Of a stretch of 34,027 nucleotides of DNA, positions 26,828 to 30,062 are shown in pieces. Where the stretch lies: the NCBI GenBank assembly GCA_902790175.1, contig CADAQZ010000017.1, positions 1-34,027 on the forward strand, given 5' to 3'. The position numbers and the translations under genes were made by a program. The stretch's first letter is position 1. Each line of letters opens with the position of its first letter. The DNA comes from an uncultured Eubacteriales bacterium. GTDB lineage: Bacteria > Bacillota > Clostridia > Christensenellales > Aristaeellaceae. The notes below the pieces were generated by a model. It searched no databases. It was not told the origin of the DNA and saw only the letters and a program-made list of their open reading frames with translations.

Positions 26828-26918
26828 GATTCTTCGACTCCGGCTGCGCCTCCGCTCAGAATGACACCGTATCGTTTACTGTCATCCTGAGCGGAGCGCA
26901 AGCGAAGTCGAAGGATCA
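26828..26918. repeat. Dispersed palindromic repeat, family B, first of a tandem pair
   Basis: Arms AGATTCTTCGACTCCGG... and ...GAAGTCGAAGGATC pair around a short centre. It is nearly identical to the copy at 26930-27022 and in the same orientation. Confidence 0.85.
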
Positions 26919-26929
26919 TACGGCAAAAA

Positions 26930-27022
26930 AGATTCTTCGACTCCGGCTGCGCCTCCGCTCAGAATGACAGCGTATCGTTTTGATGTCATCCTGAGCGGAG
27001 CGCAAGCGAAGTCGAAGGATCT
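26930..27022. repeat. Dispersed palindromic repeat, family B, second of a tandem pair
   Basis: It matches the preceding copy almost base for base, differing mainly in the centre (CGTTTTGATG instead of CGTTTACTG). It abuts the end of the NUDIX gene and separates convergent genes. Confidence 0.85.
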
Positions 27023-27027
27023 TATCT

Positions 27028-27486
27028 TTATCTGTCCTTCTCCGACCCGATGAAGATCGTCTCGCCGTGGCCGATCAGCCCGGACAGGTTGTCACGGATG
27101 GCGCGCGGGAACAGGTTCTTGCGGTGGGCGTCCTTCAGGTCGATCCACTCGCAGCCGATCTGGAAGCGGTCCTTTTCGGTGGGCTTCTGGCGCTCCTCGC
27201 TGGCCAGCTTGCACAGGAAGATGAAGTAGATCTTGTGGCTGTTGCCGTCCCTGCGGCCCTCGCTGATGCGCTCGTAGATGCCGGAGAGGCGCATCGGCGT
27301 CACCGAATAGCCCGTCTCCTCCAGAAGCTCGCGCTTCACGGTTTCGCTGAGCATTTCGCCGGTGTGCTGTCCGCCGCCGGGCAGCGCGAAGTACTCGCCG
27401 AAGCGGGAGACGCAGCGGTTGACCAGTATCTTGCCGTCGTTGAGTACGATGGCCTTTGCGGAATTGCGGGCGGACAATGGCCTCAT
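27028..27486 (-). CDS. NUDIX hydrolase
   Basis: A 152-residue protein with a complete NUDIX box, G-x5-E-x7-R-E-L-x-E-E-x-G, seen as GGQHTGEMLSETVKRELLEETGY. The substrate, a nucleoside diphosphate derivative, is unknown. The start is ATG 27486 or TTG 27477: the AAGGA site touches the ATG but is well spaced for the TTG. The upstream ATG at 27552 lies within the predicted promoter and is rejected. It follows sigG on the same strand but has its own promoter-like sequence. Confidence 0.88.
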   Translation of the reverse strand: MRPLSARNSAKAIVLNDGKILVNRCVSRFGEYFALPGGGQHTGEMLSETVKRELLEETGYSVTPMRLSGIYERISEGRRDGNSHKIYFIFLCKLASEERQKPTEKDRFQIGCEWIDLKDAHRKNLFPRAIRDNLSGLIGHGETIFIGSEKDR

Positions 27487-27595: not shown

Positions 27596-28369
27596 TCAAA
27601 TATACTTGCGCATGGCCTGCAGGGCCGATTTTTCGAGCCTGGAAACCTGGGCCTGCGAGATGCCGATCTCCTGCGCCACCTCCATCTGCGTGCGGCCCTG
27701 GAAGTAGCGCTGGCGGATGATGTTCTGTTCGCGCGCCTGCAGGCGGGAAAGCGCCTGGTCGATGGACAGGCTGCGCACCCAGTCGTCCTCGGTCACGCGC
27801 TTGTCCTGCACCTGGTCCATCACGTAGATCGTGTCGCCGCCGCTCTGGTACACCGGGTCGAACAGCGATACCGGGTCCTGGATGGCCTCCAGCGCCAGCA
27901 CCACGTCTTCCTCCGGCACGGCCATCGCCTTCGCGATCTCGACCGTGGTCGGTTCCTGGCCGGAGTCGGCCAGCAGCGCGTCGCGCGTGCGAAGCGCGCG
28001 ATAGGCCGTGTCGCGCATCGAGCGCGAGACGCGAATGGCGTTGTTGTCGCGCAGGTAGCGGCGGATCTCGCCGATGATCATCGGCACGCAGTAGGTGCTC
28101 AGTCGCACGTTCAGGCTCAGGTCGAAGTTGTCCAGCCCCTTCATCAGCCCGATGCAGCCCACCTGGAAAAGGTCGTCCATGTTCTCGCCCCGGTTGTGAA
28201 AGCGCTGGATGACGCTGAGCACCAGCCGCAGGTTCCCCTGGATCAGCTCGCGCCGCGCCTGGTCGTCGCCCTCGTGGGCCCGGGCGAGCAGCTCGCGCAT
28301 CTTTTCGTGGGTGAGCGTAGGCAGCGCCGACGTGTCGACGCCGCAGATTTCCACCTTGTTGCCAGCCAT
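27596..28369 (-). CDS. sigG: RNA polymerase sporulation sigma factor SigG
   Basis: A 257-residue sigma-70 family factor that directs late forespore transcription. The N-terminal segment NKVEICGVDTSALPTL is the signature of sigma-G, where anti-sigma factors bind. Region 2 follows (NLRLVLSVIQRF, DDLFQVGCIGLMKGLDNFD), then region 3 and the region 4 helix-turn-helix (GRTQMEVAQEIGISQAQVSRLEKSAL). Length is that of the B. subtilis protein. The start ATG 28369 follows GGAGGGTTTTTT; the binding site is part of a strong hairpin. spoIIGA and sigE, usual neighbours, are absent. Confidence 0.95.
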   Translation of the reverse strand: MAGNKVEICGVDTSALPTLTHEKMRELLARAHEGDDQARRELIQGNLRLVLSVIQRFHNRGENMDDLFQVGCIGLMKGLDNFDLSLNVRLSTYCVPMIIGEIRRYLRDNNAIRVSRSMRDTAYRALRTRDALLADSGQEPTTVEIAKAMAVPEEDVVLALEAIQDPVSLFDPVYQSGGDTIYVMDQVQDKRVTEDDWVRSLSIDQALSRLQAREQNIIRQRYFQGRTQMEVAQEIGISQAQVSRLEKSALQAMRKYI

Positions 28370-28410
28370 AAAAAACCCTCCACACCGGCAAGTATGGCCG
28401 GTGTGGAGGG
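28370..28410 (-). terminator. Terminator-like hairpin containing the sigG ribosome binding site
   Basis: On the minus strand CCCTCCACACCGGC (28410-28397) pairs perfectly over 14 bases with GCCGGTGTGGAGGG (28389-28376) around the 7-base loop CATACTT. Six T residues (28375-28370) follow, and the sigG ATG comes immediately after. It has the form of an intrinsic terminator for the upstream DUF1846 gene. The GGAGGG that should bind the ribosome is in its 3' arm. Confidence 0.85.
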
Positions 28411-28419
28411 GGGTTATGC
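28390..28419 (-). promoter_or_regulatory. Sigma-G type promoter of sigG, -10 in the hairpin loop
   Basis: On the minus strand GCATA (28419-28415), 18 bases, and CATACTT (28396-28390). This fits GHATR-N18-CATNHTA in all but the last base. The -10 coincides exactly with the loop of the hairpin. Start expected near 28383. Confidence 0.5.
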
Positions 28420-28424
28420 AGGGA

Positions 28425-28444
28425 GGAGTTAGGAGTTAGGAGTT
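28425..28444. repeat. Short tandem repeat GGAGTTA
   Basis: Nearly three consecutive GGAGTTA units. It is another purine-rich heptamer repeat of the same style as the array at 12904-12973. A family A fragment GCCGCCCCTACG follows at 28452. Confidence 0.7.
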
Positions 28445-28486: not shown

Positions 28487-29971
28487 TTACTTATGGTACA
28501 GCTTGTTCGTCTGATACGCCGGTTCGCATGTCAGGTTGACGCCCAGCTTGCTGAGCATGCCTTCGTCCACCGGGGAGAGGATTACGGAGGAGTGGGCCTC
28601 GCAGTTGCGCAGGTTCTCCAGCTGCTCCATCGCGCGCTCGGCGTTGTCGTCGGTCACGGCGCAGATGGTCAGCGCGATCAGGATCTCGTCGGTGTGCAGG
28701 CGCGGGTTGCGGTTGCCCATGTGCGCCACCTTCAAATGCTGGATCGGCTCGATCACGGTGGGGGAGATCAGCTTGATCTCGTCGGGGATGCCGGCCAGCT
28801 CCTTCAGCGCGTTCAGAAGCGCTGCGGCGGCGGCCCCCAGCAGGTTCGTGGTGCGGCCGGTGATGATGCGCCCGTCGTTCAGCTCGATGGCCACCGCCGG
28901 CTCTCCCGTGCGCTGGGCCAGCGCGAGCGCCGGGCCCACGGTGCTTCGCCGGTCGAAGTCCAGGCTCAGCGTGCGCATCAAAAGTTCCAGTTTTTGCACC
29001 TCGCCGGGCAGCGCGCGGCCCTGCTTCACGGCGCAGGCCGTGCGATAGTAGCGGCGGATGATCTCCTGGCAGGAGGCCTCGCGGCAAACCTCGTCGTCCA
29101 CGATGCTCTTGCCCGCCATGTTCACGCCCATGTCCGTGGGGCTCTTGTAGGGGCATTCGCCGAAGATGCGCTTGAAGATCTCGCGCAGCACGGGGAAGAT
29201 TTCGATGTCGCGGTTGTAGTTGACGGTGGTCTCGCCGTAGGCCTCCAGGTGGAACGGGTCGATCATGTTCACGTCATTGAGGTCCGCCGTGGCGGCCTCG
29301 TAGGCGAGGTTCACCGGGTGCTTCAGCGGCAGGTTCCAGATCGGGAAGGTCTCGAACTTCGCGTATCCGGCCTGCACGCCGCGCTTGTGCTCGTGGTACA
29401 GCTGCGACAGGCACGTGGCCATCTTGCCACTGCCGGGGCCGGGCGCGGTGACCACCACCAGAGACCGGCTGGTCTCGATGTAGTCGTTCTTGCCGTAGCC
29501 CTCGTCCGACACGATGCCGGGCACGTTTGAGGGATAGTCCGGGATGCGGTAGAGGCGGTAGACGCGAAGGCCCATGTCCTCCAGGCGGTTCTTGAACAGG
29601 TCGGCGGCGGACTGGCCGGTGTACTGCGTGATGGCGATGCCGCCCACGTAGAGGCCGAACTCGCGGAACACGTCCACCAGGCGGATCACGTCGGAATCGT
29701 AGGTGATGCCCAGGTCGCCGCGCAGCTTGTTCTTCTCAATGTCGTTGGCGTTGATGGCGATCACGATCTCCGCCTCGTCCTTCAGCTGCATCAGCATGCG
29801 GATCTTGTTGTCCGGCGCGAAACCGGGCAGCACGCGTGAGGCGTGGTAGTCGTCGAACAGCTTGCCGCCGAACTCCAAATACAGCTTGCCGCCGAAGTAG
29901 TCGATGCGCTCGCGGATGCGGGCCGATTGCAGGTGGATGTACTTCTGACTGTCGAAACCGATCTTGTTCAT
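28487..29971 (-). CDS. DUF1846 (UPF0371) family protein
   Basis: A 494-residue protein matching the DUF1846 family along its whole length: FDSQKYIHLQSARIRERI at the start, KLYLEFGGKLFDDYHASRVLPGF, and a P-loop-like APGPGSGKMATCLSQ in the middle. The start ATG 29971 has GGAGGATCGGAA upstream; the longer frame to 30049 lies in the leader. The family is widespread in anaerobic and lactic Firmicutes, and its function is not established. It precedes sigG on the same strand and is separated from it by a terminator-like hairpin. Confidence 0.9.
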   Translation of the reverse strand: MNKIGFDSQKYIHLQSARIRERIDYFGGKLYLEFGGKLFDDYHASRVLPGFAPDNKIRMLMQLKDEAEIVIAINANDIEKNKLRGDLGITYDSDVIRLVDVFREFGLYVGGIAITQYTGQSAADLFKNRLEDMGLRVYRLYRIPDYPSNVPGIVSDEGYGKNDYIETSRSLVVVTAPGPGSGKMATCLSQLYHEHKRGVQAGYAKFETFPIWNLPLKHPVNLAYEAATADLNDVNMIDPFHLEAYGETTVNYNRDIEIFPVLREIFKRIFGECPYKSPTDMGVNMAGKSIVDDEVCREASCQEIIRRYYRTACAVKQGRALPGEVQKLELLMRTLSLDFDRRSTVGPALALAQRTGEPAVAIELNDGRIITGRTTNLLGAAAAALLNALKELAGIPDEIKLISPTVIEPIQHLKVAHMGNRNPRLHTDEILIALTICAVTDDNAERAMEQLENLRNCEAHSSVILSPVDEGMLSKLGVNLTCEPAYQTNKLYHK

Positions 29972-30014
29972 TTCCGATCCTCCAGCTTGCGTAGGATGTG
30001 CCCATATGGGAAAG

Positions 30015-30062
30015 CGCGAACGGGACAGGCGGGTTCGCGCGACAAACATCGTGACTATTATA
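30015..30062 (-). promoter_or_regulatory. Promoter -10 and leader hairpin of the DUF1846 gene
   Basis: On the minus strand TATAAT lies at 30062-30057 without a convincing -35. The leader contains GCGCGAAC...GTTCGCGC, an 8-bp stem (about 30015-30041), and the palindrome CCCATATGGG before the ribosome binding site. Confidence 0.4.

Follow-up and report, generated by a model that had tools for sequence, protein, structure and literature searches.

A sporulation-type promoter nested in a hairpin predicted to hide the ribosome binding site of sigG in uncultured Clostridia

Introduction

Sporulation needs each sigma factor in one compartment at one time, and read-through transcription is common in bacteria. 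How could a sigma factor gene that follows a codirectional neighbour be protected from the translation of RNA started further upstream? This question is raised by the sigG gene in a stretch of 34,027 nucleotides (the window), which is contig C17 of the genome G000 and whose close matches are rumen and gut Clostridia MAGs. The gene encodes the sporulation sigma factor sigma-G (27596..28369, minus strand) and was assigned with family models, its ORF reaching 429.9 bits against NF006071 (cut-off 372) and 425.1 bits against TIGR02850, which is under the cut-off of 457. Upstream of sigG lies a codirectional DUF1846 gene (28487..30049, minus strand), recognised as a mechanical ORF with a family match. 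This match begins at residue 27, and the actual start is thus probably at 29971. The DUF1846 stop ends at 28487, 76 nt from the stem of the hairpin described below, and the gene is a possible source of read-through RNA into sigG.

We propose, as the probable explanation, that the sigG layout acts as a start-site lock against read-through expression. The sigG promoter would be nested in a hairpin, of which the 5' arm, carrying an anti-Shine-Dalgarno sequence, lies in the -35/-10 spacer, with the ribosome binding site (RBS) serving as the 3' arm. RNA coming from the upstream gene would contain both arms, fold and hide GGAGG, and it may also terminate at a T tract, whereas RNA from the sigma-F/sigma-G-type promoter would begin after the 5' arm, lack the fold and expose the Shine-Dalgarno (SD) sequence. 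Because the RBS would be hidden in the upstream-started messages, probably only the promoter-started messages are translated well. A promoter that is folded into its own RBS-hiding hairpin would be a compact means by which only promoter-started RNA counts.

Promoter and hairpin at the start of sigG

On the minus strand, the sigG start codon (ATG, 28369-28367) is preceded by a perfect stem of 14 bp. The 5' arm CCCTCCACACCGGC (28397..28410), which lies mostly within the -35/-10 spacer and has the anti-SD sequence CCTCC, is followed by the loop CATACTT (28390..28396) and by the 3' arm GCCGGTGTGGAGGG (28376..28389), which includes the RBS as judged from sequence and covariation. The SD sequence GGAGGG (28376..28381) is located 6 nt 5' of the ATG, and a terminator-like T6 tract (28370..28375) extends from the stem to the start codon. 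The original prediction had listed the stem, the loop, the six T residues, the ATG and a GCATA 18 nt before the loop, and all of these are exact. A 79-nt RNA containing the hairpin folds with -37.1 kcal/mol (z -3.85), which was equalled or bettered by 1 of 200 shuffles. Ten terminator-like sites are present between 27000 and 31000 on both strands (vs a mean of 3.0, sd 1.9, in shuffles of this region), and the sigG hairpin is the sole site with 14 pairs. Its GC-rich stem followed by T6 has the form of an intrinsic terminator.

A spacer of 15 nt separates the -35 element GCATA (28415..28419) from the putative -10 element GGCCATACT (28391..28399), which spans the loop and the top of the stem. The -35, the -10 and the spacing all agree with a promoter of the sigma-F/sigma-G type, and the pattern GHATA-N15-GGNMATAMT has a single exact match in G000, which is the one at sigG. 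The proposed sigma-G-type promoter fits in motif and spacing, and GGCCATACT also reads as a sigma-F-type -10. From the position of the -10, transcription is predicted to start at 28383..28386.

On the upstream side, short tandem repeats of the TAGGAGT type adjoin the -35 (28424-28444; CTCCTAACTCCTAACTCC on the minus strand), and CACTCCTCACTCCT in the genome G026 resembles these repeats. Downstream of sigG (26900-27030), there is dispersed-repeat-like text (CGAAGTCGAAGGATC ... CAGAATGACAG). Moreover, short palindromes of the type CCTCCCCTTACACAGGGGAGG recur in C4, C5, C15, C31 and C36 of G000 and are likely dispersed repeats.

Conservation of the sigG layout in the genus

The genus set consists of 28 genomes, of which 26 gave a sigG match, and the alignment comprised the upstream regions of all of these. 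The putative promoter, GNATA-N15-GGC[AC]ATA[AC]T, is kept in all 26 regions with a -35/-10 spacer of exactly 15 nt, and the distance from the -10 to the SD varies. In 23 of the 26 regions, the anti-SD arm in the spacer pairs all five nucleotides of GGAGG. When the spacers were shuffled, 0 to 6 of 200 shuffles were equally stable for the 23 genomes with the hairpin, and 67, 102 and 122 of 200 for the three without it. The arms differ in sequence between genomes and genes and yet remain complementary, and their steady part consists of the SD together with its complement. Thus, in the alignment check that had been suggested for the loop and the -10, the -10 remains between the arms, and the arms change and yet pair in 23 of 26 genomes. 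The loss of the loop in relatives had been named as an observation that would speak against the prediction; the -10 core ATA[AC]T is kept in 26 of 26 genomes, but the exact 7-nt sequence CATACTT varies.

The compensatory nature of the changes was evaluated by covariation. Among the 26 rows, changes on both sides of a pair occur in 45 cells vs 22.3 in shuffles, and none of 500 shuffles reached 45; these and the following shuffle counts are not probabilities because the rows are related. Paired cells amount to 81.6% vs 73.2% in shuffles and to 40-55% once the partner was slid. The weaker measures gave 9 pairs with a both-sided change vs 6.7 (12 of 500 shuffles as high) and 25 further pair types vs 21.0 (17 of 500 as high). 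The set of 23 hairpin members (20 distinct rows) agrees with the 26-row result. RNAalifold reported just 6 pairs per family.

Termination at the sigG hairpin is plausible from its sequence. In the 20 relatives for which the terminator scan reported the hairpin, the 8 nt after the extended stem contain 4 T in 12, 5 T in 4, 6 T in 3 and 7 T in 1 of them, and in some relatives the stem pairing extends into the T tract. The T tract thus appears less steady across the relatives than the pairing of the RBS.

Predicted exposure of the Shine-Dalgarno sequence

The exposure of the SD was expressed as the mean unpaired probability of its five nucleotides, and long RNA was compared with RNA beginning 4 to 9 nt downstream of the -10. 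For sigG of the window, the exposure of GGAGG is 0.00 in the read-through RNA vs 0.54-0.68 in the promoter-started RNA, and it is 0.31 for a start 2 nt after the -10. For the genus (26 of 26 scored), the median is 0.000 vs 0.59-0.68, with 23 of the 26 long RNAs under 0.2 and the other three at 0.40, 0.39 and 0.21. A control of 12 ORF starts with an SD in the window (mechanical ORFs, including sigG) gave medians of 0.23 and 0.23. The median also changes from 0.000 to 0.46-0.50 for the SpoIIQ-like genes (27 of 29 loci scored) and from 0.000 to 0.51-0.52 for the SipL-domain genes (24 of 25 scored, the SD being hidden in 23 of the 24), which are described below.

Thus, folding predicts that read-through RNA hides the SD by pairing it with the upstream arm and that RNA started at the promoter, after the 5' arm, exposes it, as the original prediction had stated. 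However, the exposure is partial: across six start positions, it exceeds 0.5 in 15-21 of 26 sigG, 11-13 of 27 SpoIIQ-like and 12-14 of 24 SipL leaders. Promoter-started SpoIIQ-like RNA has low values in G022 (0.04-0.11) and G020 (0.01-0.40), and promoter-started sigG RNA in G006, G004 and G003 has an exposure of about 0.40. Taken at its core, the earlier interpretation is right, and it is partly supported: a block of translation of the read-through RNA is likely, and we infer that sigG could be translatable solely from its own promoter.

Upstream genes and genomes without the hairpin

The gene upstream of sigG is codirectional in 23 of 23 genomes with the hairpin and belongs to the DUF1846 family in 18 of them. 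It encodes an FGGY kinase in G006, with a frame of equal size and place in G004 and G003, and it is phosphomannomutase-like in G007 and PRPP-synthase-like in G025, the hairpin being kept in both. The hairpin is thus kept with differing upstream genes, and its presence follows sigG and not one particular neighbour. A terminator scan reported no separate terminator in the 23 genomes, a scan that can miss sites because the known hairpin went unreported in G009 and G025.

G016, G005 and G023 have kept the promoter and the SD, and the hairpin is absent. Downstream of the DUF1846 stop in G016 and G005, and still upstream of the promoter, there is a separate strong hairpin followed by 4 T of 8. The probable upstream gene of G023 is divergent as judged by its signal-peptide-like start; the opposite frame is open too, and a Pfam search with the upstream frame gave no match. 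Hence, the hairpin is missing where another barrier is present, either a separate terminator or an upstream gene in divergent orientation. Such a barrier was found in 3 of 3 genomes without and 0 of 23 with the hairpin, the chance of which is 1 in 2600 when computed by hand with kinship ignored. The read-through hypothesis is in this way testable by evolution.

Similar layouts at SpoIIQ-like and SipL-domain genes

Further sites were found with the covariance model R1, which was built from the sigG sites, and with pattern searches; the motifs for the SpoIIQ-like and SipL genes were written after the sequences had been seen. A SpoIIQ-like M23 gene is present in 28 of 28 genus genomes at 29 loci. 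Its protein matches Peptidase_M23 above the cut-off and the SpoIIQ model with 47.3, under the cut-off of 250. A layout resembling that of sigG is found at 27 of the 29 loci, 26 by motif and the one in G015 by eye; of the remaining loci, G024 is truncated and G013 gave no clear call. The 26 loci have a -35, a spacer of 15-16 nt, ATA[ACT]T and, by a permissive motif, at least 4 of 5 SD nucleotides paired with the spacer. Equal stability was reached by 0 to 6 of 200 shuffled spacers. Since the -35 is GATTA or GTTTA in 10 of the 26 loci (GNATA in 16) and the -10 lacks GG, the assignment of a sigma factor is weak. Both-sided changes on RNAalifold pairs number 12 vs 4.8 (13 of 500 shuffles as high). 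The T tracts are poor by eye, and the SD pairing is kept. In G000, a terminator-like hairpin lies just upstream (by eye) and the layout is nevertheless kept, which indicates that insulation alone is insufficient to explain its retention.

A gene with a SipL domain (PF12673, above cut-off) is present in 25 of 28 genus genomes. Its hairpin encloses CATAYCAT-like sequences, which presumably represent a sigma-E -10, and has an SD GGAGG and a T-rich tail. The motif search was passed by 17 of the 25 genes, 6 are without the motif and 2 match it further upstream. Of the 17, 13 had at most 10 of 200 equally stable spacer shuffles, and both-sided changes on RNAalifold pairs number 6 vs 1.7 (15 of 500 shuffles as high). 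In six genomes (L342, L343, L344, L345, L346, L347), the SipL hairpin has a near-constant inner sequence TGTTGACAAACGGC after the -10; G007 has the variant TGTCAACAAACGGC, and the rest of the genus differs from the six-genome form.

Further candidate genes

The model R1 was run over the 28 genus genomes with 150 candidates scored per genome. The 23 sigG sites reached 60-70 bits, and the best other site, reverse strands excluded, had 38.0 bits. Nine sites of second rank comprise three SpoIIQ-like starts, one SipL gene, one DUF1614 gene in G001 and four others; the latter, in G025, G010, G027 and G004, are hairpins without a convincing gene start. In G000, the pattern CCTCC..GGAGG..ATG gave 71 matches vs 29 for the reversed pattern. 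After the removal of 9 nested or antisense duplicates, 62 matches were folded and 11 examined further. The SpoIIQ-like and SipL genes fit, as do the gene of a 247-aa membrane protein (C16) and that of a SpoIVFA-like M23 protein (C12), the latter name being based on the M23 match and a reading of the protein. Another single case in G000 is the gene of a 289-aa membrane protein (C5). The C12 SpoIVFA-like gene and C5 have a sigma-E-like -10 in the loop and no clear -35, and family searches with the C5 and C16 membrane proteins gave no match. A DUF1614 gene (G000:C12:83087-83123, L290; G001:C89:314-358, L252) represents a variant, in which the anti-SD arm is placed downstream of a sigma-F/G-like -10 and upstream of the predicted start; judged by sequence, this would be an alternative route to omit the arm from promoter-started RNA. 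The remaining CCTCC sites were rejected: at C33 (144 aa) and C13 (judged carboxypeptidase-like by reading), the hairpin comes without a clear sporulation promoter, the T tail is absent from C44 and C8, and C53 (53 aa) and C1 (16 aa) correspond to no convincing gene.

A GGGG-T pattern gave 4 matches vs 0, two of which precede frames of 13 and 31 aa. With one mismatch, the promoter pattern has 10 matches in G000 vs 6 in the reversed control. Nine of these one-mismatch matches were folded, and weak pairing (-11.6) was seen in one gene only, a putative RsfA-like gene; a family search with this gene gave no match. At this gene (G000:C14:59125-59153; L233, L294), the spacer of a sigma-F/G-like promoter weakly pairs with the SD of the gene.

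These loci suggest a wider reading, for which the chances seem evenly balanced: a regulon-wide start-site lock in the genus. It would cover sporulation promoters of the two compartments, of the sigma-F/G type at sigG and the SpoIIQ-like gene and of the sigma-E type at the SipL-domain gene, with the SpoIVFA-like, DUF1614 and two membrane-protein genes as single cases. Each of these promoters would lie within a hairpin that hides the RBS and is often terminator-like, and read-through RNA produced in a wrong cell or at a wrong time would then yield none of these proteins. The sigG form would be older and wider, and the others would have arisen within or near the genus. The compensatory changes across the genus and the genes of other sigma types turn a single case into a comparative system. 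Moreover, in uncultured Clostridia, the layout may serve as a signature by which start sites are located at sporulation genes.

Alternative explanations

The hairpin could be a plain intrinsic terminator of the upstream gene that overlaps the sigG start by chance, the hiding of the RBS being incidental. The GC-rich 14-bp stem with T6 has this form, and the three genomes without the hairpin have another terminator (two) or a divergent neighbour (one). However, we consider this unlikely, since the hairpin remains with sigG despite changes of the upstream gene, the promoter has one and the same spacing in 26 of 26 genomes and SD pairing is kept at the SpoIIQ-like gene, where the T tracts are poor. 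Compositional accident is the least credible of the alternatives: CCTCC..GGAGG..ATG is frequent in the genome, with 71 matches and still 29 for the reversed pattern, but covariation, the spacer-shuffle tests and the recurrence at other gene families stand against it.

Palindromes over the -10 are a common operator layout, and the inverted repeat over the promoter might be bound by a dimeric regulator. In such a case, the arms would not be expected to differ by genome and gene with complementarity kept and the SD and its complement steadiest, and the probability of an operator is very small. A sensor hairpin in the leader of a true sigG mRNA that begins further upstream appears slightly less improbable than the operator, and is still highly doubtful. 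Leader RBS hairpins indeed act on the PsigG RNA of B. subtilis (PMC5942855), but in 26 of 26 genomes the hairpin contains a conserved sporulation-type promoter with fixed spacing. Geometry, conservation, compensatory changes and the predicted occlusion of the SD, all read from sequences, argue for the start-site lock.

Relation to known systems and occurrence beyond the genus

In IS10/Tn10, RNA of the transposase gene that was started outside folds and its RBS is hidden; this case concerns a mobile element with a housekeeping promoter. Inhibitory RNA structures at the RBS have also been described for the T4 genes e (lysozyme), soc, 49 and I-TevI (PMC3014915). The longer early RNA of gene e hides the RBS, and RNA from late promoters located in the 5' strand lacks that strand and is well translated, the effect being 100-fold (PMC3014915). 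T4 uses a phage late sigma factor, and no terminator is described in the passages on it (PMC3014915), whereas the layout reported here involves cellular sporulation sigma factors and several genes in one genus.

For B. subtilis sigG (spoIIIG), a previous study describes a hairpin of 20+ bp, which was proposed to stop the translation of read-through RNA from PspoIIG and is unable to form in PsigG RNA, a proposal dating to 1988 (reference 52 of PMC5942855). A separate 5-bp leader hairpin dampens PsigG RNA itself (PMC5942855). The precedent named in the original prediction has to be corrected in that the two are distinct: the 5-bp hairpin dampens PsigG RNA and the 20+ bp hairpin was proposed to block read-through (PMC5942855). 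Thus, the mechanism suggested for the window had already been published for B. subtilis sigG, where, as in the window, a hairpin was proposed for the read-through RNA that is absent from the promoter-started RNA (PMC5942855). Together with T4 gene e, this proposal means that the working principle is already known. The B. subtilis gene follows the spoIIGA-sigE operon and its promoter has a spacing of 14 nt, in contrast to DUF1846 or other genes and 15 nt here, and the sigG promoters of Clostridia mostly have a spacing of 15 bp, with 14 in 3 of 13 (PMC5942855). Further differences from B. subtilis sigG are the terminator-like T tract seen here and the recurrence of a similar layout at additional genes for sporulation in the genus. 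In listings and abstracts of the open-licence literature, neither the use of the principle at multiple sporulation genes that differ in sigma type nor the nested terminator form was found. The read-through-lock logic is known, and its recurrence at SpoIIQ-like and SipL-domain genes within the genus is new.

Beyond the genus rows, 172 sigG upstream regions were tried, 168 were parsed and a promoter was found in 165. The sample comprises 60 named loci (a few maybe in the genus), 23 family or order members and 89 phylum genomes, the latter taken from the best-scoring part of 340 genomes with a match, about one per family; many rows are close kin, and G028 is present twice. Pairing was scored at p <=0.05 vs spacer shuffles with at least 4 of 6 SD nucleotides paired. 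By this measure, the spacer pairs the SD at 45 of the 165 sigG promoters and 120 of 165 fall short, and an equal-length stretch 5' of the -35, used as flank control, passes in 11 of 165. For the spoIIQ-like genes of the order, 97 genomes had a match and 29 loci were read, with start codons picked automatically; of their 27 promoters, 1 passes and 26 fail. At L148, L168, L177 and L215, which are Bacillus-like by our reading, the anti-SD arm lies within a spacer of 14 nt, in agreement with the B. subtilis hairpin described above. In L096 and L103 (Tepidibacter), the anti-SD arm is located just 5' of the -35 and outside the spacer (CTCCTCAA with TTGAGGAG).
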